From contig CAMWSK010000006.1 in the NCBI GenBank assembly GCA_947176895.1, positions 1-64,000 of the forward strand: a stretch of 64,000 bases of DNA, given 5' to 3'. The DNA is from an uncultured Prevotellaceae bacterium. GTDB lineage: Bacteria; Bacteroidota; Bacteroidia; Bacteroidales; Bacteroidaceae. The notes below the pieces were generated by a model. That model had not been told where the DNA came from. It searched no databases and worked only from the letters and a program-made list of their open reading frames with translations. Shown piece by piece: positions 976 through 62,396 of the stretch (its first letter is position 1; each line of letters starts with the position of its first letter). The translations under genes were made by a program, and so were the position numbers.

Positions 976-983
976 TACCTTTG
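976..983 (+). promoter_or_regulatory. -7 promoter box of the DUF4493/PCMD operon
   Basis: TACCTTTG lies 42 nt before the first lipoprotein start. It is the only good TAnnTTTG box seen before the whole seven-gene cluster, so the cluster is probably one long transcript. No convincing -33 TTTG was found. Confidence 0.6.
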
Positions 984-1025: not shown

Positions 1026-1808
1026 ATGAAAAAAACAATCTTCCTGCCTGCCCTGCTGGTTGCCGGTGCCCTGTTCTCCGGCTGCTCACAGGATGAAGAG
1101 GCTAACCCCGGCAAGGGAACGTTGAAGGTGGACTTGCGTGCCGAGACCGCTTTCAACAAGACCCGCGCCATCGACCAGGCTGCTTACGAGGACATCAAGA
1201 ACTACACCGTGAAGCTCGTCGAGACCCAGACGGGCAAGGTGGTGGACGAGGCCCTGTATGGCAACTGGGACCTGGCCTACCAGGTGGAGAGCAACAAGCA
1301 ATACACCCTGAGCGCCAGCTATGGCGAGGAGGTGGCCGCCAGCTACGACAAGCTGCTGTGCTATGGCGAGGAGACCTTCACCGTGCTGCCCGGCACCACC
1401 AAGACGGTGGCCTTCGCCGCCACGCCCCGGGCCGCCAAGGTGAGCGTGAACTATAGTGATGACTTTACCACGTATTGCAACGATTGCGAGGTGAGCGTCA
1501 AGACACAATATATGTCCGCGCCCGAAGTGATAAACATCGACAAGGTCGGCCGGGAGCTGTACCTGAAGGCCGGCGAGAACGAGACCGTGACGCTCGGCTT
1601 CAAGGTGATCGGCAAGGACGGCAACGAGGTGGCCGACAAGAGCGCCACCAAGACCGTGACCGTCAGCCCCCGCACCTGGCTGAAGGTGACCGTGAAGCCC
1701 AACGTGACCCAGATCGAGGGCGGCAAGTTCGGCATCAACGTGATTGTGGATGACGGCGTGACCGAGGAGAACATCGACTTCAACGTGCCCAACGATGTGT
1801 TCAACTAA
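1026..1808 (+). CDS. DUF4493-family surface lipoprotein
   Basis: 260 aa from the ATG at 1026; an ATG at 1017 (MRQ extension) is possible. The signal peptide ends in a lipobox, LFSGC, with the lipidated Cys at residue 20. The mature part has the DUF4493 pattern: a beta strand (GTLKVDL), an NKTRA site about 30 residues after the Cys, then beta-rich subdomains with YTLSASYGEEVAAS, CYGEETFTV and KVSVNYSDDF. No catalytic motif is visible. It is probably exported to the cell surface. It is the first gene of a cluster of seven DUF4493/PCMD/barrel genes, 30 nt before the next. DUF4493 has no established function; structural or adhesive use is inferred. Confidence 0.75.
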   Translation: MKKTIFLPALLVAGALFSGCSQDEEANPGKGTLKVDLRAETAFNKTRAIDQAAYEDIKNYTVKLVETQTGKVVDEALYGNWDLAYQVESNKQYTLSASYGEEVAASYDKLLCYGEETFTVLPGTTKTVAFAATPRAAKVSVNYSDDFTTYCNDCEVSVKTQYMSAPEVINIDKVGRELYLKAGENETVTLGFKVIGKDGNEVADKSATKTVTVSPRTWLKVTVKPNVTQIEGGKFGINVIVDDGVTEENIDFNVPNDVFN

Positions 1809-1838
1809 ACAGACTAACGACTAACGACAACGAAGACA

Positions 1839-3215
1839 ATGAAAAAGATATATCTGATGGCTACGGCCCTGACGGCCCTGACGGCGCTCACGGGCTGTGA
1901 CAACAACGCCGACCTCTATGGCGACGACCAGGTGGGCGGCAACAACGGACAGATCAGCCTGACGCTGAAGAACGATGCCAAGGTGCGCGAGAGCGAGGCA
2001 ACCCGCGCCGACAACGAGGCTGCCGACAACGGCGAGAAGCCCGGCGTGTTCGACCCCGCCGAGGTGAACGTGCAGAACTATGAGCTGACGGCCACCGACA
2101 ACAAGACCAACAAGGCCCTGTTCAGCGGCAAGATTGCCGACCTGGGCGGCAACAACGGCGTGCTCACCCGCACCATGCCCGAGGGCACCTACATCCTGGC
2201 CGCACAGAACTATGACGGCAGCGGCGTGACCGTGAGCGAGCGTCCCTGGTTCCGCGGCGAGGCCGTGGGCACCATCCTGCCCGGCAAGACCACCCGGATG
2301 ACGGTGAGCTGCAAGTTGCAGAACATACAGATGAAGGTGTCGCTGGGCGAGAGCTTCAAGAATGACTTCCTGGACGACTACACCATCACCGTGGACAACG
2401 GCGACGGTGCCGTGAACATCTTCACCAAGGACAACGTGAGCAAGGTGTTCTACTTCCAGGTGCCCGACAACAAGAGTGCCGTCACCGTGAGCGTGAAGGC
2501 CACGGTGAAGAGCACCAACACGGTGATCATGCGCACCTATACGGTGACGAAGCCCGCCGATGCCGAGGGCGACCGCACGCTGAAGGCCGGTGATGCCTTC
2601 GTCCTCAACATCACCAGCGACGACTCCATGCTCTCTCACATCGACTTCGGCATGACCGTCGACTTCAGCTTCGCCGAGCAGGAGTTCACCTTCGAGATTG
2701 ACGAAAGCGAAATCACCTACGACGACAACGGCGGCGAGGAGCCCGGCCCCGGTCCCGACGATCCCGGCAACAACCCCGGCAACATCGAGAGCATAGGCCT
2801 GCCCGCCGAGTACACCGACCCCCATGTTTCCGGCCAGTCCGTGACGGTGGACTTTACCGTGCCCAACGGCTTCAAGAACCTCTTCGTGACCATCCGTTGC
2901 GGCAGTGAAAGCTTTGAGAACATCATTGCCGGCATGGATATGCTTGAGACCTTTGACATCTGCAACCCTGCCGCCAACAAGCAGGACGGTTCGGCACGTG
3001 ACCTGACTCAGAGCCTGACCACTCTGAAACTGTTGCCCGAAGACGGCGATTTGAAGGGTGACACCAGCTTCACGTTCGACGTGAGCTCCTTCATGGAGTT
3101 GCTGCCCTTCTATGGTGTGGCCGACCACTACTTCGACATCAAGGTGGTGGATGCCAACGACAACGTGAAGGAAGGCACACTGACTGTGCATATCAAGACG
3201 CCTGCAGAAGAATAA
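1839..3215 (+). CDS. DUF4493-family lipoprotein with C-terminal beta domain
   Basis: 458 aa. Signal peptide with lipobox ALTGC (Cys 20), then a Gly/Asn spacer, an ISLTLKN strand and an EATRADN site. Residues about 75-290 form the DUF4493-like part (YELTATDNKT, GTYILAAQNYDG, MKVSLGESFKNDFL). A Gly/Pro/Asp linker (GGEEPGPGPDDPGNNPGN) at about residues 297-314 leads to a C-terminal beta domain of about 140 residues that I do not recognise. No enzyme motif is seen. It sits 30 nt after the preceding paralogue and 39 nt before a DUF4493-PCMD gene. The linker suggests a stalk-and-head layout on the surface; this is inference. Confidence 0.7.
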   Translation: MKKIYLMATALTALTALTGCDNNADLYGDDQVGGNNGQISLTLKNDAKVRESEATRADNEAADNGEKPGVFDPAEVNVQNYELTATDNKTNKALFSGKIADLGGNNGVLTRTMPEGTYILAAQNYDGSGVTVSERPWFRGEAVGTILPGKTTRMTVSCKLQNIQMKVSLGESFKNDFLDDYTITVDNGDGAVNIFTKDNVSKVFYFQVPDNKSAVTVSVKATVKSTNTVIMRTYTVTKPADAEGDRTLKAGDAFVLNITSDDSMLSHIDFGMTVDFSFAEQEFTFEIDESEITYDDNGGEEPGPGPDDPGNNPGNIESIGLPAEYTDPHVSGQSVTVDFTVPNGFKNLFVTIRCGSESFENIIAGMDMLETFDICNPAANKQDGSARDLTQSLTTLKLLPEDGDLKGDTSFTFDVSSFMELLPFYGVADHYFDIKVVDANDNVKEGTLTVHIKTPAEE

Positions 3216-3254
3216 CATCGCGCGGACATTAACTAATAAAGAGGAAACAGAAAG

Positions 3255-4964
3255 ATGAAAAATCTGAAGATATATGCAATGCTCCTGGCGGGTGTTGCCA
3301 CATTGAGCAGCTGCTCCGACGACTTGTTGGGCAGCAAGGGTGAGGGCTGGATCCAACTCTCCGGCGTGAGCACCGACAAAGGCCTGAGCACCGAGACGCG
3401 TGCCGGGGAGCCCGTGATGGCCGTGGACATCGTGGATGGCGATGGCAACACCTTCGTTCATGCCGACGACTGGACCACCATCCAGGGCGAGAGCTATCTG
3501 GTGAAGGCCGGAAACACCTACACCGTGAAGGCCTACACGGCCGGAGGCGATGCCGAGGCCGAGGGCTTCGACGTGGCTCCCTACTACGAGGGCAGCAGCG
3601 ATGTGACCGTGAAGGCCAACCAGGCACAGACGGTGGATGTCACCTGCCGACTGGCCCAGGCCAAGCTGAGCGTGAATTATTGCGCCGACTGGAAACGCTT
3701 CGTGCAGGAAGGGTTCTTCGCCGAAGTGGTAGGCACAGACGTGAGGTTCGAGGGCGAGGAAAGCCGCGCCGCCTATCTGAAGGCCGGTCGCGAGCTGAAA
3801 CTGAGGCTCATCTTCACTCCCGTGGGCAAGACTTATGCCAACACCTTGGAGAAGACCATCGTGGCCGACACCAAGGCCGCCACGCACTATAAGGTGAACG
3901 TGAACCTGAACACCGACGGCAACGGCAATATCACTGTGGACGTGGACGAAACCATTCACGAATACGAGGTGACCCTGGGCGTGCCCGTGGAGAACAACGG
4001 CATCATCACCGCTCCCATCAACGGCGACTACAGCCGCGTGTGGGGTACCAGCGCCACGCTGAGCGGCTTCGTGAACGAGGAGACCGGAGACCCCGTCCAA
4101 TTCATGTATGCCCCCAGCGGAACCGAGAACTGGACCACCGTGGATGCCGGCAAGGTGGGCGAGACCGCCGAGTTCGCAGCCGAGATTACCGGCCTGCAGA
4201 TGGGCACTGCCTACGACTATAAGATTGTGAGCGGCGAGATGGCAGGTGACGTGCTCACCTTCACCACCGAGAAGTACGAGGAGATTCCCAACCTGGACTT
4301 CGAGAACTGGGCGCAGAAGGGCAAGACCTGGTATCCCAACGCCGTGGCCGCAGGCAACACGGAAGCCGGTGCCTACTGGTCAACGGGTAACGAAGGTGTG
4401 ACCAGCACTTTGGCCGGTGGCAATGACCCCATCACCACCCCGGTCGAGGATTCCCGTCCCGGTTCTGCGGGCACCAAGTGCGCCGAGATGCACACCATAA
4501 CGGGTGTGATGCTTGTCGGCTCGGCTTCCGGCAACCTGTTCATCGGCAAGTACAAGACCAATTTCAGTAAGCCCGCGGCCTCTGTCACTTTCGGTCGCCC
4601 CTACTCCGGAGCCCGTCCCCGCAAGCTGAGCGGATGGTATAAGTACTCGCCAAAGCCCATCAACAACGGCTCTTACGACGAGGGCAGAGGCATCACCACC
4701 GACGAGGCCAACATCTACCTGAAGGTGTGGGCTGCCGACGGCAGCGAGATCGGCTATGGCGAGATGGTGGATGGCGAGAATGTGACCGAATGGAAGCAGT
4801 TCAGCTTTGATGTCACCTATACCGACACAACCAAGCCTGCCGCCACCATCACCATCGTGGCCACCAGCAGCCACTACGGCGGCGTGTTCGAGGGCAGTTC
4901 GGTGATTGGCAAGGTGGGTGCCGGCAGCCAGTTGTGGGTTGACGACTTTGAAATCGGATACTAA
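3255..4964 (+). CDS. DUF4493 plus PCMD-domain lipoprotein
   Basis: 569 aa. Lipobox TLSSC (Cys 20); TETRAGE site about 30 residues later; DUF4493 region to about residue 235; a short Fn3/Ig-like segment about 240-335 (ATLSGFVNEETGDPVQF, AYDYKIVSG); then a PCMD domain (putative carbohydrate metabolism domain) from about residue 340, starting IPNLDFENW, with YWSTGNEGVTS, ASGNLFIGKYK, GWYKYSP and the terminal SQLWVDDFEIGY. The PCMD fold is thought to resemble carbohydrate-binding jelly rolls, but its role is unproven. The C-terminal half is clearly paralogous to the gene at 5758, which suggests duplication within the cluster. Likely surface-exposed. Confidence 0.75.
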   Translation: MKNLKIYAMLLAGVATLSSCSDDLLGSKGEGWIQLSGVSTDKGLSTETRAGEPVMAVDIVDGDGNTFVHADDWTTIQGESYLVKAGNTYTVKAYTAGGDAEAEGFDVAPYYEGSSDVTVKANQAQTVDVTCRLAQAKLSVNYCADWKRFVQEGFFAEVVGTDVRFEGEESRAAYLKAGRELKLRLIFTPVGKTYANTLEKTIVADTKAATHYKVNVNLNTDGNGNITVDVDETIHEYEVTLGVPVENNGIITAPINGDYSRVWGTSATLSGFVNEETGDPVQFMYAPSGTENWTTVDAGKVGETAEFAAEITGLQMGTAYDYKIVSGEMAGDVLTFTTEKYEEIPNLDFENWAQKGKTWYPNAVAAGNTEAGAYWSTGNEGVTSTLAGGNDPITTPVEDSRPGSAGTKCAEMHTITGVMLVGSASGNLFIGKYKTNFSKPAASVTFGRPYSGARPRKLSGWYKYSPKPINNGSYDEGRGITTDEANIYLKVWAADGSEIGYGEMVDGENVTEWKQFSFDVTYTDTTKPAATITIVATSSHYGGVFEGSSVIGKVGAGSQLWVDDFEIGY

Positions 4965-4998
4965 ACGCATACACCATATATAATATAAAGAAACGTTT

Positions 4999-5736
4999 GT
5001 GAAAAAACTGTGCATAACCCTCGTAGGTCTTATGTTCCTGGCCACCGCTTCGGAGGCCAAGGGGCGTAAGACCTACGACCGTGGAATAAAAACCTCGACG
5101 TTCATGCCCAAGGGCAGCAAGGTGGGAGGCATCTCGTTCAACTATTTCAAGATAGACGCCGACGACTATGACTTCCTCATCCTCGACGGCATCGATGCCA
5201 AGGGCTACACCTTCTCCGTGTCGCCCCATTTCGCCTACACGTTCAAGGACGATGTCGCCATCGGAGCCAAGGGCTCGTTCCGCCGCAGCTATGCCAACAT
5301 CCAGGGCATGGACGTGTCGCTGGGCGACGACCTCAGCTTCGAGATGGACCACTGGCGCACGATGAGCAACAGCTTTCGCGGAGCCGTGTTCCTGCGTACC
5401 TACATGAGCCTGTTCGGCTCCAAGGTGGTGGGCTTCTACAACGACCTGGAGCTGAGCTACGCCTATGGCCGCACGAAGACGCTCAACCACACGGGCGACG
5501 ACCTGGACGGCAGCTTCCAGGTGAACCACGGCATACGTATCGGCGCCCGCCCCGGCCTGGCCGTGTTCGTGCGCAACAACATGGCCGTGGATGTCAACCT
5601 GGACGTGGCCGGATTGAGCTTCAACTGGAAAGAGCAGACACGCAACCAGGTGGAGAAAGGGACCTATTTCAAGAGCAGCGCCAACTTCCAGCTCAACATC
5701 CTGAGCGTGGGCATCGGCGTCACCACCTACTTCTAA
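4999..5736 (+). CDS. outer-membrane beta-barrel protein
   Basis: 245 aa with a signal peptide (cleavage near TASEAKG) and no lipobox. Alternating hydrophobic strands rich in Phe/Tyr/Gly (GGISFNYFKI, YTFSVSPHFAYTF, FYNDLELSYAYGR) and a last strand ending in Phe (LSVGIGVTTYF) fit a small beta-barrel of roughly 8-10 strands. The start is GTG at 4999; no ATG in frame lies nearby, and the residues after it form a normal signal peptide. It sits 34 nt after a DUF4493-PCMD gene and 21 nt before a PCMD lipoprotein, so it may anchor or export the cluster's lipoproteins. That role is inferred from position only. Confidence 0.7.
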   Translation: MKKLCITLVGLMFLATASEAKGRKTYDRGIKTSTFMPKGSKVGGISFNYFKIDADDYDFLILDGIDAKGYTFSVSPHFAYTFKDDVAIGAKGSFRRSYANIQGMDVSLGDDLSFEMDHWRTMSNSFRGAVFLRTYMSLFGSKVVGFYNDLELSYAYGRTKTLNHTGDDLDGSFQVNHGIRIGARPGLAVFVRNNMAVDVNLDVAGLSFNWKEQTRNQVEKGTYFKSSANFQLNILSVGIGVTTYF

Positions 5737-5757
5737 TCACAACCAACCGCATCATCT

Positions 5758-7389
5758 ATGCTTAGCATCAAGCGCACCCTATACCTCTTGCTGCCCGTGG
5801 CCGCCGCAGGGCTGCTGCAGGGCTGCATCGAAAACGACATACCCTATCCCCACATCGAGGGAATCATCACCCGCATCAGTGTGGAGGACATGGAGGGCGA
5901 GGCTGTGATCAACCGCCAGAGCCGCACCGTGGAGATTAGCGTGGGCGAGGAGGCCGACCTCAGCCGCCTGCAGATCACCGCGCTCACGGTGAACCCGGAG
6001 GCCACCTTCCTGGTGGACACCACCGCCTGCATCAACCATCGTCAGATGCCCACCGCCAGCTTCGAGTCGCTGGCCTCGCTGCCCGCCAACGCCAACACGC
6101 GGGTGGACGCCACACGCCCCTTCAACATCCATGTGAACACCTATCAGCACTATTTGTGGAGCGTGACGGTGAACCAGACCATCGAACGCTATATCGAGGT
6201 GGACAACCAGATGGGCGAGGTGGTGTTCGACGTGCCCAGCCGTCGCGCCATCGTGTATATCGAGAAGGGCAACGACATGACGCAGGTCAACATACGCCGC
6301 ATGAAGCTGGAGGGAGGCGAGTGCACCTTCTCTCCCGACCCCGCCACCGTGCACGACTTCTCCCGTCCCCGCGATTTCCAGGTCTTCAGAGAGGGAAAGC
6401 TTCTGGGAACCTGGACGGTGGACGTGCAGTTCAGCGAGCAGGTGTCGTCTACCGGGGCCGTTACCGTTAGGCCCCGCCGCGCCACCCTCAGCGGAGGCGT
6501 GAAGAGCGGTGTCACCCCCGTGGTGGAGTATCGCAAGCAAGGCGCCGGGGAGTGGACCACGTTGCCCGCCGAGAACGTCACCATGAAATCCAGCGTCAGC
6601 TTCACCGCATCGGTGGACGGGCTGCAGGAGAGCACCACCTATGAGTGGCGCATCGTGGTGGACGGCGTGCCCGGTTCCGCAGCCACCTTCACCACCGAGA
6701 CCATCTTCCCCGTGCCCAACCTGAACTTCGACACGTGGACACAAAGCGCGAACGGCAAGAACTGGTACGCCGGCCCCGTGGCCGACAACTACGACGACCC
6801 TCAGGCCTTCTGGGCCAGCGGCAACGAGGGCGTGACCATGAGCGTGGCCGGAGGCAACGAGGCCACCACACGTCCCGTGGAGGGCAAGGATGCCGTGAAG
6901 GGCAAGGCCGCCTACATGACCAGCATCTCGCCCGTCATGCTGGTGGGTGCCGCCGCAGGCAACCTGTTCATCGGCACCTACAAGACCAATCTGGGCAGTC
7001 CCAAGGACAGCCCCCAGTTCGGCCGCACCTTCACGGGTTGCCACCCCGACGGCCTGCGCGGCTACTATAAGTATCTGTCCACGCCTATCGTGCACGGCTA
7101 CTATCCCGGCGACCTGACCATGGACGAGGGCCACATCTACATGCGCATCTGGGATGCCGCAGGCAATGAGATAGCCTACGGAGAGCATGTGGTCAGCGAA
7201 AGCGTCGGCACCTACACCCCCTTCGAGTTCCGCCTGAAATGGACGAACGCCAACGCCGAGCCGGCCACGATGACCATCGTGGCCACCAGCAGCCGATACG
7301 GAGGTGAGTTCGAGGGCGTGAAGGTGAAGGGACAGGTGGGAGCCGGCAGTGCGCTTTGGATTGACGAATTTGAAATCATTTACGACTAA
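5758..7389 (+). CDS. PCMD-domain surface lipoprotein
   Basis: 543 aa. Lipobox LLQGC (Cys 23), then NDIPYPHIEGIITRI, a start typical of PCMD lipoproteins in Bacteroides. The N-terminal half contains Ig-like repeats (residues about 30-225), one Fn3-like segment about 230-315, and a PCMD domain from about 319 (VPNLNFDTW, FWASGNEGVTM, AAGNLFIGTYK, GYYKYLS, SALWIDEFEIIYD). It lacks the DUF4493 module of its paralogue at 3255, although the two PCMD domains align closely along their length. No catalytic residues can be assigned. Five nt separate its stop from the next start. Confidence 0.75.
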   Translation: MLSIKRTLYLLLPVAAAGLLQGCIENDIPYPHIEGIITRISVEDMEGEAVINRQSRTVEISVGEEADLSRLQITALTVNPEATFLVDTTACINHRQMPTASFESLASLPANANTRVDATRPFNIHVNTYQHYLWSVTVNQTIERYIEVDNQMGEVVFDVPSRRAIVYIEKGNDMTQVNIRRMKLEGGECTFSPDPATVHDFSRPRDFQVFREGKLLGTWTVDVQFSEQVSSTGAVTVRPRRATLSGGVKSGVTPVVEYRKQGAGEWTTLPAENVTMKSSVSFTASVDGLQESTTYEWRIVVDGVPGSAATFTTETIFPVPNLNFDTWTQSANGKNWYAGPVADNYDDPQAFWASGNEGVTMSVAGGNEATTRPVEGKDAVKGKAAYMTSISPVMLVGAAAGNLFIGTYKTNLGSPKDSPQFGRTFTGCHPDGLRGYYKYLSTPIVHGYYPGDLTMDEGHIYMRIWDAAGNEIAYGEHVVSESVGTYTPFEFRLKWTNANAEPATMTIVATSSRYGGEFEGVKVKGQVGAGSALWIDEFEIIYD

Positions 7390-7394
7390 CTCTC

Positions 7395-9539
7395 ATGCTT
7401 AGAAAGGTTTGTTCCTATATTCTTGCGGCCTCTTGTGTGCTGGCCATCGCAGGTTGTGCCGATGATGTGGCCGTGGATCCCGAGGGCGTGATGCTCAACC
7501 TGGAGATTGCCGATGTCAGGGCCGGCGTTGCCACGCGTGCCGTGCCCGCCGAGCTGCCGAAGCCCGTGCAGGAGGCTTTCCGCCTGGCCATCGTCAACGA
7601 ACAGGGCCGCACCGTCTACGATGATGCCTTCGCCCCCAGCGTGGGACCCTTCGCTCCCGGCCGTTTCACGCTGAGCGTGGGCTATGGCGAGGAGGTGCTT
7701 GCCCTGGATGCTCCCTGCTATGCAGGCGAGACCTCCGCTTCCATATATAAAGGATTGGAAAACGTTATCCGCATCGATGCCCGTGTGGCCAACGCGCTGA
7801 TGAGCATCGCGTATGCCGATGCCGGGGAACTTGAAGAATATTTCGAGAGTTTCGGTGTCAGCTTCACGCTTGACGGTCGGACGGTGTCGCTCGACGGCCC
7901 CTCACCCGCGCAGAGTGCTTACTTCCCCGCCGGCAGCGTGCCCGAAATCACTTTCCATGCCGAGCGCAAGGACGGTCGCACGGTGGCCATCTCGCTTGAC
8001 CGCTCGCTGGCCTCGCGCCTGCCTCTCGAGGCCGGACGGCACGCCAAGGTGACCATCGGCGTCAGTGCCGACAAGGTGGAGATTACCAAGGTGGACGTGG
8101 AGGAGGTGACCATCGCCGAGACCATCCCGCCCTCATGGCTGCCCCGACCCCGGACCCAAGTGGTGGGCTTCGACGAAAACGGTGTGCTGCACAATGTGGA
8201 GACCCTGAAGGTGGACCAGGCGAAGATTGACTTCACCACCAGCAGCACCCTGCAGGATGTGGAACTGACCCTCGACATCCAAGACCCCGCCTACAGCCAC
8301 CTTACAGGTACGCATCTGCTCAGCGCGATGACCTCCGCGCAGCTGGAGAGCCTGCGCCTGGCAGGCATCGACCTGCCCGCCGCAGGCACCGAGGGCGGCA
8401 CCATCAACCTCACACGCTTTGCCACCAATCTGCAGACCAACGAGGGAAACACGACCACCAACACCCTCTCGCTGCGCGTGAAGGCCAACGACCGGTGGGA
8501 CACGGAATCGCCCCAAACCTACTCGATTGTGGTGGAGAAACCCGTGTTCGGTGCCCGCGTATTGCCCGGCAACATCTGGACGCGCGAGTTCACCATCAGC
8601 CCCCTTCGTGCCGAGGACGTCACGAAGGGCGACTTCGATGTGCTCAGCAAGAACATCACCTATCAAGTGCAACAAAACGGGGTGTGGATGACCCTCAGCG
8701 ATCGCACCGTGAGGAGTCTCACTCCCTCCACTGCCTACACCATCCGTGCCTGCTATCGCGGCTGCGTGTACTCCGACCCGATGACGGTGAACACCTTCCC
8801 TGTCACGCCGTTGCGGAACGGTAACTTCGATGATGAGCAATGGACCGAGGACGGTCGGGACTTCAGTGCAGGTGCCGGGCATGGACGCCGTTTCTATTTC
8901 CCAGGTTGGGCCACGTTGAATGAACTCACTGCAGATGATTGCGGTGTCACGACTTATGCTTACAACTCACGTTCCGGAACCCGTCCCACTGGAACCCACG
9001 ATAGCAGATACCTTAAGCTCAGTGATGATGCTGTCAGTGGAACGGCTCTGTGGTTGGGTACGGTCTCATGGGGTCAGGGTGGAACTACTTACAATCCCAA
9101 GCACATTACTCCGGCCGAACTCTTCCTTGGTACGCTGGATAATGTGAACCGTGATAATGACACCGCTGATAAGAATTATGGAATCACCTTCAATTCACAT
9201 CCTACGGCCATCACTTTCTTCTATAAGTATACGGCATACGGTAGTGATGGGGCTGTGGCAGAGATTGCGCTTTACAACGATGATACCCTGTTGGGCGAAG
9301 GGAAGGCCAAGTATGGCAACCAAGGCAACTGGGCGCAGCAAACGCTGGAGTTGACTTATGATCAAGATGAAAAAAAACTCGAACTCATGCCCAATAAACT
9401 GGTGGTTAAGTTCGCCTCCGGCGAGAGTACAGAAGCAGAGAGAGTGACCATTTCCACATTCCTTGGTGCGATTACTAATTGTTTCTATACCGGCTCCCAG
9501 CTTTGGCTTGATGAGATAGCCTTGGTCTACGACAAATAA
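7395..9539 (+). CDS. DUF4493 plus PCMD-domain lipoprotein (long form)
   Basis: 714 aa. Lipobox AIAGC (Cys 21); VATRAVP site about 27 residues later; DUF4493 region with FTLSVGYGEEVLALDAP and CYAGET to about residue 240. A central part (about 245-470) contains DUF4493-partner sequence (VVGFDENGVLHNVETLKVD, LTLDIQDP) and an Fn3-like stretch. A divergent PCMD domain starts near 472 (NGNFDDEQW, TAITFFYKYT, SQLWLDEIALVYDK). Base composition becomes clearly more AT-rich from about 8880 to the stop, covering the PCMD part. The next gene is 207 nt away, across an inserted inverted-repeat element. Confidence 0.7.
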   Translation: MLRKVCSYILAASCVLAIAGCADDVAVDPEGVMLNLEIADVRAGVATRAVPAELPKPVQEAFRLAIVNEQGRTVYDDAFAPSVGPFAPGRFTLSVGYGEEVLALDAPCYAGETSASIYKGLENVIRIDARVANALMSIAYADAGELEEYFESFGVSFTLDGRTVSLDGPSPAQSAYFPAGSVPEITFHAERKDGRTVAISLDRSLASRLPLEAGRHAKVTIGVSADKVEITKVDVEEVTIAETIPPSWLPRPRTQVVGFDENGVLHNVETLKVDQAKIDFTTSSTLQDVELTLDIQDPAYSHLTGTHLLSAMTSAQLESLRLAGIDLPAAGTEGGTINLTRFATNLQTNEGNTTTNTLSLRVKANDRWDTESPQTYSIVVEKPVFGARVLPGNIWTREFTISPLRAEDVTKGDFDVLSKNITYQVQQNGVWMTLSDRTVRSLTPSTAYTIRACYRGCVYSDPMTVNTFPVTPLRNGNFDDEQWTEDGRDFSAGAGHGRRFYFPGWATLNELTADDCGVTTYAYNSRSGTRPTGTHDSRYLKLSDDAVSGTALWLGTVSWGQGGTTYNPKHITPAELFLGTLDNVNRDNDTADKNYGITFNSHPTAITFFYKYTAYGSDGAVAEIALYNDDTLLGEGKAKYGNQGNWAQQTLELTYDQDEKKLELMPNKLVVKFASGESTEAERVTISTFLGAITNCFYTGSQLWLDEIALVYDK

Positions 9540-9582
9540 TGATGGAAAGAAGAGGTTGTTGCAATGCCCGTTTCACCCACAA

Positions 9583-9672
9583 TGCAGGGACGTGTCTGCG
9601 ACACGTTGAAGCCGGTAGGCCGGAATGCCGTTCATATGCAGCGGAGAACGTGTCAAAGACACTTCCCTACAT
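9583..9672. repeat. MITE-like inverted-repeat element, copy 1
   Basis: Left arm reads GCAGGGACGTGTCTGCGACA and continues CGTTGAA; the right arm (AACGTGTCAAAGACACTTCC) is its inverse with a few mismatches. Each arm also holds a small CGTGTC/GACACG hairpin. A second copy lies at 62301-62396. The element separates the sixth and seventh genes of the surface cluster. It carries no coding capacity. Confidence 0.7.
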
Positions 9673-9746
9673 CGTGGCAGCGTTCTGAATTTAAAGCTTT
9701 GAACGACCTCGTAGTAACGATAAAACATGAATATCTTTTGAAAAAC

Positions 9747-10418
9747 ATGAACAAGTTTTTTTCCATACCTCTTATCGCTTTGGCCTTTGTTTCCTGTGCG
9801 CAGACCGAAGACGTGCGGCCCGCCATGGGCACCGTGTCGGTGGCGCTGAGCAAGCAGGCGGAGAGTCCCGAGCTTATCACGCGCACCGTGGACGATGACC
9901 TGCAGGTGGACATTCTGAACAGCGAGGGCACCCTCGTGAGGCACTTCGCCGAGGGCGAGGCGCATAGCGGTATCCAAGCGTTGGAACTGGAGGCCGGCAC
10001 CTACAGCCTCGAGGCCTATACCGCCAACCACCGGACCACTTTTCCCGACACCGAGCGCGGCGAGGCCAAATACTTCGGGCGCACCGACTTCCACGTGGTG
10101 GCCGGCAGAGAGACCCGTCTGGGTCTCCGCGTCCCCATGACCAACATGGCCGTCAGCCTGCAACTGCCCGCCGACATCGCCGACCGCTTCACCGGCATCC
10201 GCTTCGCCCTTACCCGCGGCGACCGCACTCAGGAACTTTCCTCCGGTGAGACTGCCTATTTCGACCTCACCCCGGCGGCCGATCTCACCTACAGCCTCAC
10301 GATGACCAACGCCGACGGTGAAACCGGCAGCAAATCGGCAGTCCTGCCCGTCGAAAGGCAGAAGGCCGGCACGCACTATACCATCACCTACGCCATGGGG
10401 CAGCTCGGTCTGCGATAG
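9747..10418 (+). CDS. short DUF4493-family lipoprotein
   Basis: 223 aa from the ATG at 9747, where a typical lipoprotein signal peptide begins (MNKFFSIPLIALAFVSC, Cys 17); the open frame extends upstream through the repeat element but that part is not plausible. The mature part begins GTVSVALSK and has LITRTVDD, a variant of the TRA site of its neighbours, then LEAGTYSLEAYTANHRTTF, the DUF4493 second-subdomain signature and TNMAVSLQLPADIADRF. No PCMD module is present. A terminator 25 nt downstream closes the cluster. Role unknown. Confidence 0.7.
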   Translation: MNKFFSIPLIALAFVSCAQTEDVRPAMGTVSVALSKQAESPELITRTVDDDLQVDILNSEGTLVRHFAEGEAHSGIQALELEAGTYSLEAYTANHRTTFPDTERGEAKYFGRTDFHVVAGRETRLGLRVPMTNMAVSLQLPADIADRFTGIRFALTRGDRTQELSSGETAYFDLTPAADLTYSLTMTNADGETGSKSAVLPVERQKAGTHYTITYAMGQLGLR

Positions 10419-10442: not shown

Positions 10443-10483
10443 AGGATGCGCATCTTTCCCCCGAAGGATGGCATCCTTTTTTC
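10443..10483 (+). terminator. terminator closing the DUF4493/PCMD operon
   Basis: AGGATGC at 10443-10449 pairs with GCATCCT at 10471-10477, followed by a T-run to 10482. The 21-nt interior can form a second small stem. Confidence 0.6.
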
Positions 10484-10606
10484 TTTCATCCACGGTTCCG
10501 CGCCTACATCGTGGCAGACATTCTCCTCGTCCAATAGCCCGTATATACAGATTATTCATATACCATCGCTATAAATAATATATCCGAATACTTGCAATTC
10601 ACGCTG

Positions 10607-10651: not shown

Positions 10652-11497
10652 ATGTGCAAAATCATAGCCATCATCAACGATAAGGGAGGGGTGAGCAAGA
10701 CCACCACCACCATGAACCTGGGCACGGCCCTCTGGCTTCTGGGCTATCGCGTGCTGTTGGTGGACAGCGATAAGCAGTGCAACCTCACCGTCACCATGGA
10801 CAAGAGCAGCTATGCGCCCGGCGTCACCACGCTCTATGACTGGATGCTCGACGAGCAGATGGCTCCCCCCGTCTATGAGCGCTATCCCGGCCTCGACTAT
10901 ATCCCCTCGGGCGTGCGCATCGACGACCTCAACACCTGGCTGGCCGACAAGGTCTATCGCGAGAACTATCTGGCCATGCGGCTCGACATGCTCCGCCCCG
11001 AGTACGATTTCATCCTCATCGACTGTGCTCCCGGCTGCACCAGCATCATCAACAAGAACGCCATCGCCGCCGCCGACGGGGTCATCATTCCCGTGAGGGC
11101 CGACCTCTACAGCGTGCAGGGCAAGGATGCCGTGATCAACATCATCGAGCAAATCAACAAGATGATGGGCAAGCGCGTGGAGATGATGGGCTACCTGCTC
11201 ACCCAGTTCGAGAAGACCCGCATGGGACTTGAGGTCAAGGACTTCTTCCAGGGCGGCTCCGCACCCGTCTTCCCCGTGCCCATACGCAAGTGTGCCAAGT
11301 GCAACGAGGCTCCCAAAGACCAGATGTCGCTCTACGAGTTTGCCGCCGACAGCACTGCCGCCGACGACTATATGCGCCTGGCCGAGTATCTGACCAACCG
11401 TCTGCCGCGCAGCAAGAAATGGCTTCCCCGCGAGTGGGGCCGCAAGGCCGCGCAGGCTCATGAGGAGTTTCTGAAAAACCAGGAAGGAAACAATTAA
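10652..11497 (+). CDS. parA: ParA-family partition ATPase
   Basis: 281 aa. The deviant Walker A box is NDKGGVSKTTTT near the N-terminus (the Lys of KGG is present; the usual second Gly is Ser). Walker A' is LLVDSDKQCNL and Walker B is FILIDCAPG. It should be a dimerising ATPase that moves DNA or positions a cargo together with a DNA-binding partner. The start ATG lies just after an inverted repeat that covers the promoter. The next gene, 20 nt downstream, encodes a small likely DNA-binding partner. In Bacteroidota such pairs occur on plasmids and integrative elements as well as on chromosomes. The context here (phage-type pseudogene, repeats) favours a mobile origin, but codon use looks native. 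Confidence 0.85.
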   Translation: MCKIIAIINDKGGVSKTTTTMNLGTALWLLGYRVLLVDSDKQCNLTVTMDKSSYAPGVTTLYDWMLDEQMAPPVYERYPGLDYIPSGVRIDDLNTWLADKVYRENYLAMRLDMLRPEYDFILIDCAPGCTSIINKNAIAAADGVIIPVRADLYSVQGKDAVINIIEQINKMMGKRVEMMGYLLTQFEKTRMGLEVKDFFQGGSAPVFPVPIRKCAKCNEAPKDQMSLYEFAADSTAADDYMRLAEYLTNRLPRSKKWLPREWGRKAAQAHEEFLKNQEGNN

Positions 11498-11517
11498 CCC
11501 CCTAACACCACGCTACC

Positions 11518-11895
11518 ATGCCCAAACCCAAGAATTTCAATTCCATCGGAGACATAGAGAGAGAGATTGGCGACCGCACCCGCGGCCTCTATCAGCAGGC
11601 ATCCCAACAGATGCCCCCCATGGTCAACCCCACACCCCAGATGATGATGACGCGTGTGGTGCGCCGCAAGCCCCAGAGCATCATCCCCCGCGTCAACGGC
11701 AAGCTCCTCTTCCTGGAGGACGCGCACAACGAGGCCATCGAGAAGATACACTGGACCAGCCGCGTCGACCGTCAGGACGTTATCCGTGCGGCCATCCAGG
11801 ACTTCATCGACCGTTACTTCGACGGCGAGCGCGTCACCCCCGAGGCCGAGCAGAAAATCAAGGATTATTATGCCCGCACGCACCCCGAGTATTGA
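11518..11895 (+). CDS. ParA partner, small likely DNA-binding protein
   Basis: 125 aa. The N-terminal half is Met/Gln/Pro-rich and probably disordered. The C-terminal half, from about residue 58 (GKLLFLEDAHNEAIEKIHW) through RVDRQDVIRAAIQDFIDRYF, looks like one strand and two helices, as in ribbon-helix-helix proteins. Position 20 nt after parA and the operator-like repeat before parA fit a ParB/ParG-type centromere-binding and repressor role. It may also be related to the DUF3408 partners found after ParA in Bacteroides conjugative elements; I could not decide. A strong terminator follows. Confidence 0.55.
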   Translation: MPKPKNFNSIGDIEREIGDRTRGLYQQASQQMPPMVNPTPQMMMTRVVRRKPQSIIPRVNGKLLFLEDAHNEAIEKIHWTSRVDRQDVIRAAIQDFIDRYFDGERVTPEAEQKIKDYYARTHPEY

Positions 11896-39151: not shown

Positions 39152-40522
39152 TTAAATGTTTTTCTCCAGTACCAGAGCGATTCTTTCCACGATACCCGTT
39201 ACCAGGGCGTTCCCCATGAGGAACGCCCTTCGCATATCCGTGACACCCGCAGTGTGATGGTCGGGGAACATGTTCAGCCGCTCCAATTCCAAGGGAACGA
39301 GACGGCGGTAACGCCCTCCTGGAGTTTTGATTACGTGCTTGAAACGTGAGGGGCCTGTACCACCTTCACCTGTGATGATGGTGCGTGAGGCGCGGTCTAA
39401 ATAATCGGGGAATGCCATTGCTCCCTCGCTGTAGTTATATTCGATACCGGTTTCTTTGTTGACCCTTTTCAGTGACTTGTGCCCCTTGAGGTATTCCCAT
39501 TTTGGCAAATCTTCCTCCGGAATGAAGAAGCATTCCGGAACATCCTTCTCGTCAATGAGTATTTGTCCCAAGGTAATCATCGGGCCTGAGTAGGCTGGCT
39601 CTGTGTCGATGGAGCAGACGTTGCGGCCAATCATGATGCCTGTATTCAGGAACGGGCTGCTTTTCTGCCCCTTGTTGAAGTCTGCGGAAACAGAGGACAG
39701 GTCTCCTTCAATTTTAAACTCGGAGATCGTTTCTTTCTTCACTTGGCAGGGAAACGCCTTTGCCATTGTCCCGTTCTCGGTCAGCCACTTGCGCCTGTCG
39801 CTTTGGCCGGCGGCATTGGCAATTTTGTTGCCTTGTTTGTAGGCTACAATGTATGTTCGCCTTCTGCGTTGCGGCATGCCGTAGTCGGCGGCATTGATGA
39901 TGCGCCATTCCACAACGTAGCCCAGGTCGGCCAGTGATGCCAGGATGATGGCAAAATCACGGCCGCGCTGATTGGCGGGCGAGACCAATAGACGGTCAAC
40001 ATTCTCGAGCATGAGAAATTGAGGAGCGTCCTTCCCCATTTCTCTCAGGATGCGGTGGATTTGCCACCACAGCACTCCTTTCTTCCCTTCTATCCCGCCG
40101 GAATGGCGGAGCGTGGTTGCCACGGAATAGTCCTGACAGGGAAACCCGCCGCACAGCAGGTCGCAGTTGGGGATTGCCGATGTTGGCACTGTGGCGATGT
40201 CCTCGTTCGAGTGTCCCTCCGCGCCGAAGCGTTTGGCATATATGATGCTTGCGTCTTGTTTTTTTGTGGATGGCTCCCATTGGTTGTTCCAGATGGTGAC
40301 AAACCGTCTGGATGCCCGTTCCAGTCCGATGCGGAATCCTCCGACTCCGGCAAACAATTCCACAACCTTGATATCGCTGTCTTTTGTTGTGCGGTACGAT
40401 GGTTCCGTTGGGAACAGGCTTAGCTGTTGCGCCATCCTGTGGGTTGTGTTGGAGTATTCCGCTACAGATTCACAGAAAGTCCACCGGTTTTCTTCCTCGT
40501 TTGTGGGTGTATAGGGTGTCAT
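39152..40522 (-). CDS. DNA cytosine-5 methyltransferase of a type II R-M system
   Basis: 456 aa. C5-MTase motifs in order: I VVELFAGVGGFRIGLE, IV LLCGGFPCQDYS with the catalytic Cys, VI MLENVDRLL, VIII MPQRRRRTYIV, a variable target-recognition region, and X FLMGNALVTGIVERI. The N-terminus carries an extra 50 residues (MTPYTPTNEEEN...). Its ATG overlaps the stop of the upstream endonuclease gene by 4 nt. A Sau3AI-like partner suggests GATC as target with methylation at C, but this is inferred. The pair is more AT-rich than its neighbours. Confidence 0.93.
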   Translation of the reverse strand: MTPYTPTNEEENRWTFCESVAEYSNTTHRMAQQLSLFPTEPSYRTTKDSDIKVVELFAGVGGFRIGLERASRRFVTIWNNQWEPSTKKQDASIIYAKRFGAEGHSNEDIATVPTSAIPNCDLLCGGFPCQDYSVATTLRHSGGIEGKKGVLWWQIHRILREMGKDAPQFLMLENVDRLLVSPANQRGRDFAIILASLADLGYVVEWRIINAADYGMPQRRRRTYIVAYKQGNKIANAAGQSDRRKWLTENGTMAKAFPCQVKKETISEFKIEGDLSSVSADFNKGQKSSPFLNTGIMIGRNVCSIDTEPAYSGPMITLGQILIDEKDVPECFFIPEEDLPKWEYLKGHKSLKRVNKETGIEYNYSEGAMAFPDYLDRASRTIITGEGGTGPSRFKHVIKTPGGRYRRLVPLELERLNMFPDHHTAGVTDMRRAFLMGNALVTGIVERIALVLEKNI

Positions 40523-41937
40523 TTGTGTTCGTTTATCAGATTTGTTACGTATTCCGAATTAAACCAATAGCAATATTTCCTGACTCTTCCGCCATGGGGA
40601 TTCGTTGTCAGGTCCGCAGCGTTCCTGCCTTTGGGGCGCACGTGAAAGAGCTTCTTGTCGCTGATTTTCCAGAAACATTCGGGGGCTGTCGTGTTACGGG
40701 TAACGCATTGCCGGATGTTTTCCCAATAGTCTTTTGCCACATCCAGGTCTGCCTGGGGCATTGTCCAAAAGAACACATCGTCCAGCACATAACGCTTTTC
40801 TTCGCGTCCTCCGGCCAAGGTTATCTTGCCATCTGTCTCTTTGAAGACAACAAACAGGAAACGGGCGGAAAAAAGTTCATACAGGCGTGAATCATACCAG
40901 TCTTCGCAGTCGCAGACCTCCTGATAGTCGATGTTTTCAAAGGACATGCTTTCCTTTATTTTCCCGTTCTTTTGCACGCGGATGGTTTTCATGGTCAGTC
41001 CGGCCTTGAGAAACTCTTCAGAGAGGTTCACATTGCCCACTTCTTGGTTGCCGGCGATGGCGTTGGCCATGGTGAAATAAAGTTGCTTGGAGTAGGTCGC
41101 CTCACGACAGGTCATCCGGCAAAACTCTTCGTAGTCCTTGTGTAAAAAAGGATAGAAGCGTTTGAGTATGATGCCGTCAAAGGAATCTTTGCGCAAATCA
41201 TCGGTTCTGACCACTTGTTCCGCCTTCTCCTTTTCCGGCTCCGTCACAATATTTGTGTATGCCCCTTCCCGGTGCTTCCTCTTTGTTTCCTCCAAGACGG
41301 TGCGCATATAAGCCATTTTCAGGCACCAGGCTCTTCTTGGCGCACCGATGTCAGAGCCATGTTGCGGTATCAGGCTGTCACCTTTTTGCCCTTTCCTGCA
41401 GGCGGCGAGATACATGGTATCGCCTTCGGACAAGGTGTGTGCCAAGCCGTTCCTGATTTTGTCGCTGATAATCTCGTAATCATGCCGCATGATCAGCAAG
41501 TCTTTCTCCGGCAGTTGCCAAAGAACGGTGAACAGGAACTTTAAGTCCAATCGGGGAACGCTTCCCCGATGAAGATAAAACAGGATGAGCATCACCAGGC
41601 ATTTCTTGTAAAAGTGTGACTCTTCAAAAGATTTGTCCCAGTCTTCCCGATAGTTTATCATGCCACAGACAAGCCGTTCCTTGATGGCAAGTTCGTCTTG
41701 TCTGTTAAGCTTCAGCGGGGTACATTTCAGTTCTACGCCGGCAGCGGCAAAATCGGCTTCAGCCTTGGAGTTTACGTCATAGCCAAAGAACAGTTCTTCC
41801 ACCAGCTGGCCCAAGCCGCCTTTTCCGTTGTGCTCGGCGGCATCGACGGTGAAGTCGCGAAGGCTGTGGTTAACCAATAGTTTGCTATAGCTGAAGATGG
41901 AAGTCCTGTCGTTCCTGTCATATTGCCCTATCAACAT
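40519..41937 (-). CDS. Sau3AI/MutH-like type II restriction endonuclease
   Basis: 472 aa, similar in length to Sau3AI. The N-terminal domain has GKGGLGQLVEELFFGYDVNS, then Asp62 and VELKC (Glu69, Lys71), the Glu / Asp / Glu-x-Lys metal site of MutH-type nucleases. The C-terminal half (about 250-472, for example FLFVVFKETDGKITL, DDVFFWTMPQADL) corresponds to the second, non-catalytic MutH-like domain used for site binding in Sau3AI. With the adjacent C5 methyltransferase it forms a complete system that cuts unmodified foreign DNA. It is the first gene of the pair. Confidence 0.88.
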   Translation of the reverse strand: MLIGQYDRNDRTSIFSYSKLLVNHSLRDFTVDAAEHNGKGGLGQLVEELFFGYDVNSKAEADFAAAGVELKCTPLKLNRQDELAIKERLVCGMINYREDWDKSFEESHFYKKCLVMLILFYLHRGSVPRLDLKFLFTVLWQLPEKDLLIMRHDYEIISDKIRNGLAHTLSEGDTMYLAACRKGQKGDSLIPQHGSDIGAPRRAWCLKMAYMRTVLEETKRKHREGAYTNIVTEPEKEKAEQVVRTDDLRKDSFDGIILKRFYPFLHKDYEEFCRMTCREATYSKQLYFTMANAIAGNQEVGNVNLSEEFLKAGLTMKTIRVQKNGKIKESMSFENIDYQEVCDCEDWYDSRLYELFSARFLFVVFKETDGKITLAGGREEKRYVLDDVFFWTMPQADLDVAKDYWENIRQCVTRNTTAPECFWKISDKKLFHVRPKGRNAADLTTNPHGGRVRKYCYWFNSEYVTNLINEHK

Positions 41938-62300: not shown

Positions 62301-62396
62301 CATCCGCAAAGCAGGGGCGTGTCTTTGACACGTTCTCGCCGGAGGATTGCCTTCGTGGGTTCAACGTGTCGAAGACAGGTCCCTGCTTTGCGGATG
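62301..62396. repeat. MITE-like inverted-repeat element, copy 2
   Basis: Arms 62301-62334 (begins CATCCGCAAAGCAGGGGCGT) and 62363-62396 (ends TCCCTGCTTTGCGGATG) are inverse over 34 nt with a few mismatches around a 28-nt centre. Shared with the copy at 9583: GCAGGG, CGTGTC and GACACGTT. Confidence 0.8.

Follow-up and report, generated by a model that had tools for sequence, protein, structure and literature searches.

The type V fimbriae of Bacteroidales follow a rule in which cleavage falls in the loop between strands 1 and 2 of the shaft and tip proteins whereas the anchor is left uncut; in the Mfa proteins three or four hydrophobic side chains hold strand 1 in place, and for fimbrillins of Bacteroides and Parabacteroides an Arg or Lys has been reported in the strand 1-2 loop (PMC5789003). 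Two further systems bear on the locus described here: the levan utilisome, in which the N-terminal Ig-like part of the surface glycan-binding protein (SGBP) is seated on the barrel's lip (PMC7618045), and the PCMD protein BT2081, whose conserved pocket is proposed to bind carbohydrate and whose Asp259 is a candidate catalyst of unproven role (PMC2954218). We analyzed a DUF4493/PCMD operon of seven plus-strand genes, in the order D1-D2-D3-B-P-D4-D5, at positions 1026-10418 of a 64,000-nucleotide stretch of DNA (the window; positions 1 to 64,000 of contig CAMWSK010000006.1, assembly GCA_947176895.1) from an uncultured Prevotellaceae bacterium. This operon probably encodes a putative, uncharacterized surface structure, and we assign a probability of roughly 0.55 to the reading that it makes a protease-activated, mixed-subunit surface assembly working like the shaft and tip part of type V fimbriae. 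DUF4493 is named in none of the 5.39 million open-access papers searched.

The features of the operon are given below with their window coordinates; Pfam cut-offs are 27 bits for DUF4493 (PF14900) and 28 bits for PCMD (PF13201).

976-983, plus strand: TACCTTTG, -7 box of the Bacteroidetes type, ~40 bp 5' of D1
1026-1808, plus strand: D1, DUF4493 lipoprotein (Pfam 122 bits; Cys codon 1083-1085; Arg codon 1164-1166)
1839-3215, plus strand: D2, DUF4493 lipoprotein with an extra C-terminal domain (Pfam 105 bits; Cys codon 1896-1898; Arg codon 2004-2006)
3255-4964, plus strand: D3, lipoprotein with DUF4493, Fn3-like and PCMD domains (Pfam PCMD 119.5 bits, DUF4493 116.5 bits; Cys codon 3312-3314; Arg codon 3399-3401)
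4999-5736, plus strand: B, small outer-membrane-barrel-like protein with a signal peptide, ~245 aa
5758-7389, plus strand: P, PCMD lipoprotein without DUF4493 and without the Arg/Lys site (Pfam 103 bits; Cys codon 5824-5826)
7395-9539, plus strand: D4, DUF4493, middle domains and a divergent PCMD (Pfam DUF4493 78 bits, PCMD 38 bits; Cys codon 7455-7457; Arg codon 7536-7538)
9747-10418, plus strand: D5, short DUF4493 lipoprotein (Pfam 67 bits; Cys codon 9795-9797; Arg codon 9882-9884)
10443-10483, plus strand: intrinsic terminator, AGGATGC ... GCATCCT followed by a T run (stem 10443-10477)

The predicted -7 box follows the Bacteroidetes-type consensus, TAnnTTTG. An earlier note on this DNA had proposed a single promoter and a single terminator, and the reanalysis has the -7 box and a terminator bounding the unit, with no terminator-like site on the plus strand between the -7 box and the terminator that ends the operon. 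That note had also described five DUF4493 lipoproteins in a row; Pfam upholds the five, which a whole-genome search found to be the only DUF4493 genes of this genome, but they do not stand in a row, because B and P lie between the third and the fourth. Its three proteins ending in PCMD were recovered as well (119, 103 and 38 bits, cut-off 28). None of the seven operon proteins reached a named NCBIfam family, and B matched no Pfam or NCBIfam family. Intergenic gaps measure 5-39 bp with the exception of 207 bp ahead of D5, a gap that holds a palindrome-rich, REP-like extragenic element (9560-9725) with about a dozen further partial matches in the genome on both strands, one of them at window 62313-62396; a 15-mer from this element recurs at 10503-10517.

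The fold of D1 and the Arg/Lys site

The fold evidence for DUF4493 comes from a model of D1, one of the five DUF4493 proteins. The AlphaFold2 model of mature D1, built with 31 orthologs, has a pLDDT of 88.5 and a pTM of 0.81; strand 11-20 stands at pLDDT ~95, the block of loop that contains T27-R28-A29 averages ~66, and the C-terminal strands 216-223 and 228-235 are modeled at falling confidence. A Foldseek search of this model against the PDB placed Bacteroidales putative adhesins of the fimbrillin group at ranks 1-5 (E 1.9e-6 to 1.5e-5), and the matches with E<=0.001 are mostly Bacteroidales fimbrillins. VIA-align gave Z scores of 8.8 for Mfa3 (5nf4; 188 residues, 3.6 A), 8.8 for 3r4r, 8.6 for 3sy6, 7.5 for FimA (4q98), 7.4 for Mfa2 (5nfi) and 7.0 for Mfa1 (5nf3), and among the matches listed those that align both D1 domains are mostly fimbrillins, the others aligning one domain. 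D1 is thus predicted to adopt the two-domain beta-sandwich fold of the FimA/Mfa fimbrillins, which is the outcome of the pilin-fold check that the earlier note had proposed. The match is persuasive because it covers both domains and agrees with independent features; Z scores of this size alone would be weak.

No such kinship appears at the level of sequence profiles. The P_gingi_FimA, Mfa_like_1, Mfa2 and Fimbrillin_C profiles match none of the seven operon proteins, and PDB sequence searches with D1 and with the D1 profile returned no fimbrillin, just chance matches of titin type. We therefore class DUF4493 as fimbrillin-like by fold while leaving it outside the named fimbrillin families. D5, which is homologous to D1 (hhalign 99.3%), lacks the last ~28 positions of the DUF4493 profile (Pfam profile 6-197 of 226) and ends before the last two strands, in which it is comparable to the short tip protein Mfa4 (PMC5789003).

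The five DUF4493 proteins of the window carry the motifs NKTRAI, EATRAD, TETRAG, VATRAV and LITRTV, as reported before and confirmed here with their coordinates, the Arg measuring 27-36 residues past the lipidated Cys; in D1 the predicted cut falls after the Arg of T-R-A. Alignments made for each ortholog group (29-32 sequences, most with 20-50% identity to the protein of the window) give the site as [T/S]-[R/K]-[A/S/T], 25-36 residues past the lipidated Cys and after the first strand, which in D1 has L, V or I at three alternating positions, a pattern also described for the Mfa proteins (PMC5789003). The K/R column is filled in 31/31 D1, 30/32 D2, 30/31 D4 and 27/29 D5 orthologs, and the D3 site, counted by motif since the aligner slips there, is present in 31/32. 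The loop varies in length, and K/R is kept in all five paralog families with mostly T or S before it and mostly A, S or T after it. This bears out the Arg conservation across DUF4493 on which the original proposal had depended, with Lys as the alternative residue. The R-or-K pattern persists in loci from the whole order; in Rikenella and Millionella (loci L117 and L123) the three DUF4493 subunits of the operon have Lys. Most or all operon subunits carry Lys for Arg at once in L117, L123 and L073, a pattern that would fit a changed specificity of the maturation protease in those genomes.

Counted strictly as [ST][RK][AST] at 23-42 residues past the Cys, the site occurs in 309/414 DUF4493 proteins, 6/51 P proteins and 10/52 other lipoproteins, several of the last ten looking fimbrillin-like themselves. 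Relatedness among the sequences makes these counts an overestimate of the number of independent events; even so, the pattern is seen repeatedly, in five paralog families and in several bacterial families, and is far from chance. In a set of 20 classical fimbrillins drawn partly from this genome and partly from relatives, 19/20 have T or S before the basic residue and 19/20 have A, S or T after it, at 27-43 residues past the Cys, so that the alignments make the position and the P2/P1' context of the DUF4493 site equal to those of classical fimbrillins. This genome also provides an internal comparison in two canonical type V loci. The first (G000:C19:33000-45000) encodes two FimA-like proteins, a shaft with GTRAAQ and another with QTRTST, together with an Mfa2 anchor, a DUF4906 protein with LTRTRSAG, a DUF3868 protein and a DUF3575 barrel; the second (G000:C2:94000-105000) has similarly placed genes, including a fimbrillin with GTRSTN and an Mfa2 anchor. 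In both loci the Mfa2 anchor is without a [T/S]-[R/K] site, whereas the FimA-like shaft and tip genes do (TRA/TRS/TRT), a contrast that matches the published cleavage rule (PMC5789003).

The conserved site is where the best-surviving rival explanation must be weighed, namely that the DUF4493 proteins are lipid-anchored static adhesins and that some other constraint, for example a salt bridge, preserves the Arg/Lys. Mfa2-type anchors show that a fimbrillin fold can remain uncut (PMC5789003), and the operon has no protease of its own associated with it. A structural role sits poorly, however, with a site that lies in a low-confidence loop of variable length and in which R swaps with K, with the retention of the T/S and A/S/T neighbors of classical cut sites, and with anchors of the same genome that lack the site, and we consider this explanation unlikely.

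Architecture of P, the PCMD domains and the gene order

In the AlphaFold2 model of P (pLDDT 85.5), residues 2-205 match the two Ig-like domains of the levan SGBP (8aa2_G; Z 12.0, rmsd 8.7 A across both), the first of which alone superposes at 2.5 A on 8aa0_G; residues 207-294 are an Fn3 domain by structure match; and residues 295-521 form the PCMD jelly roll, with a Z score of 21.3 to BT2081 (3hbz) and matches to three other PCMD structures (4jrl, 3s30, 4het), Z 20-21 overall. The N terminus of P, CIENDIPYP, is highly conserved. On this model P resembles an SGBP and not a fimbrial anchor; a role as an anchor with a fimbrillin fold was considered and rejected, the matches listed for the model being Ig, Ig, Fn3 and PCMD with no fimbrillins.

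The P model and the published structure (PMC2954218) support a carbohydrate-binding-type jelly roll for PCMD, the type of head that the earlier note had suggested. The position aligned with Asp259 is H in 18 and Q in 5 of 31 P sequences, and in D3 it is S, N or A, with D in 3/32; because Asp is mostly not kept in P and D3, binding is likelier than hydrolysis.

An SGBP-like P raises the rival explanation that the operon serves glycan capture in the manner of a polysaccharide-utilization system, P being docked on B as an SGBP and the DUF4493 proteins acting as extra binding arms that any cleavage would merely release. It draws on the levan SGBP, which rests on its barrel through the N-terminal Ig-like part (PMC7618045), and on the conservation of the P N terminus. 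There is, however, no SusC/SusD in the operon or adjoining it and no glycoside hydrolase in the operon; B, which its sequence suggests is an outer-membrane barrel, is at ~245 aa far below SusC size; and five fimbrillin-fold subunits would be foreign to known utilization systems. We judge this explanation to be distinctly unlikely.

Genes for DUF4493 occur in 41/301 sampled genomes of the same family as the window and, across Bacteroidales, in 44/393 sampled genomes spread over many families. The order D1-D2-D3-B-P-D4-D5 is kept in 31 of the 38 loci fetched besides the window, some of them ended by a contig edge; of the other seven, one is incomplete and six arrange a similar core in a different order. 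P, used as the query against 84,980 species genomes, returned hundreds of relatives, and layouts were read from the best 79 loci, a set that this choice of query skews toward loci containing P. Among these, layout I, that of the window, is found in Bacteroides, Phocaeicola, Paraprevotella, Mediterranea and many Parabacteroides, and layout II, in which a large DUF4493 and PCMD-like protein is followed by D2-D3-B(-B2)-P, in Rikenellaceae, Muribaculaceae, Barnesiella and some Parabacteroides. In the loci examined D2-D3-B-P is the core wherever DUF4493 genes occur, and B always lies between D3 and P in canonical relatives. Some relatives have several extra DUF4493 genes 3' of D5 (loci L037, L127, L131, L134, L146 and L147), which suggests that the accessory DUF4493 subunits are a variable set.

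Three observations concern the surrounding DNA. Between an HU-like gene and the operon, a 37-aa open reading frame (708-821) weakly matches the NCBIfam 'smalltalk protein' (17.5 bits, cut-off 24.7). Directly 3' of the operon, 10652-11895 encodes a ParA-type ATPase, matching NCBIfam ParA models only under their cut-offs, and a small unnamed protein, possibly a mobile-element or partition pair. A 472-aa protein at 40519-41937 on the minus strand matches a MutH-type nuclease domain (122 bits).

Assembly of the subunits

Under the favored reading of a protease-activated, mixed-subunit assembly, the DUF4493 precursors would be lipoproteins exported to the cell surface; in most of them the Cys is closely followed by acidic residues, and such residues belong to a known lipoprotein export signal (PMC5080379). 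The first beta strand of each precursor, ahead of the site, would fill the groove of its own N-terminal domain until cleavage behind the Arg or Lys of the flexible loop, by a trypsin-like protease at the surface, removes the lipid and the first strand, whereupon the vacated groove may accept a strand from a partner subunit by strand exchange. Because three of the five subunits have extra C-terminal domains and D5 is without the last two strands, a short fibre or tip-like mixed complex is likelier than a long homopolymer. The subunit most suited to linking or repeating would be D1, whose two C-terminal strands are predicted to be free, and the PCMD domains of D3 and D4 would be outward, probably glycan-binding, heads. 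P, which lacks the site, would stay lipid-anchored and may form the base of the assembly together with the barrel B.

The genome offers two candidate maturases, a C11 (clostripain-type) lipoprotein and a C25 peptidase in a 1246-codon frame, the latter possibly PorU. As a marker of DUF4493 genomes the C11 protease was dropped, since 57 of 59 genomes, carriers or not, have one.

Several points weigh against the favored reading. Neither the C11 nor the C25 peptidase has a particular connection with the operon. The VIA Z scores of 7-8.8 between D1 and fimbrillins are middling, and hhalign gave D1 4.6% against Mfa_like_1 and 2.1% against FimA-like, in comparisons of small alignments. The operon has no Mfa2/FimB-type anchor gene, the two of this genome lying in other loci. 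D2, D3 and D4 end in other domains and so are without a free C-terminal donor strand, and layout II, in the loci examined, has only subunits of that kind. Cleavage and polymerization are predictions made from sequence and modeled fold. The proposal of the earlier note is upheld in part, polymerization itself being not supported. The operon has no Mfa2-type anchor, P is SGBP-like, most subunits are without a free C-terminal donor strand, and the comparisons of sequence gave no kinship to named fimbrillin families. The least likely of the alternatives, a classical type V fimbria with D1 as a long homopolymeric shaft and the other subunits as tip or accessory proteins, can point to D1 being DUF4493 alone with two C-terminal strands of lower confidence and to five pilin-like genes, as in mfa1-5, but meets a layout II without a D1-like DUF4493-only subunit in the loci examined and an operon without an Mfa2-type anchor.

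The protease-activated, mixed-subunit assembly remains our favored reading. Its fuller form, in which the operon specifies a distinct Bacteroidales-wide surface structure, a short fixed mixed fibre of trypsin-armed type V pilin-like proteins, several with glycan-binding heads, with a small barrel and a lipoprotein resembling an SGBP as its foundation, is possible, and we hold it only tentatively.

Comparison with known systems

What is predicted to be new is an undescribed operon that combines subunits of the type V kind with sugar-binding heads and a partner resembling an SGBP, which offers a function hypothesis for the DUF4493 family and, if true, joins fimbrial assembly to glycan capture. 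The operon is present in animal-gut Bacteroides, Phocaeicola, Parabacteroides, Rikenellaceae and Muribaculaceae; given this broad gut distribution, a shared structure with sugar-binding heads would, if true, bear on gut adhesion and nutrient capture. The question of type V pilin assembly is also widened: if subunits that lack a free C terminus take part, a different donor-strand rule has to apply.

Like the type V fimbriae (FimA-E, Mfa1-5), the DUF4493 proteins are lipoprotein precursors with several subunits per operon, a predicted two-domain beta-sandwich fold and a first strand followed by a flexible loop with Arg/Lys, and a canonical type V locus of this genome likewise includes a small barrel, there DUF3575. 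Unlike those fimbriae, the DUF4493 operon has PCMD heads, an SGBP-like P and a different barrel, shows no sequence-level FimA/Mfa match and, in one layout, has no simple shaft subunit. With the BT2081 PCMD family it shares the jelly roll, modeled in the C-terminal domain of P and matched by the Pfam model in D3 and D4, but here PCMD is fused to DUF4493 or to SGBP-like arms, SusC is absent from the operon and Asp259 is mostly replaced in P and D3. P, in turn, has the lipidated N terminus followed by two Ig-like domains seen in the levan SGBP (BT1761, 8aa2_G), whereas its binding domain is PCMD in place of the ThuA-like levan domain and its operon contains no SusCD partner.

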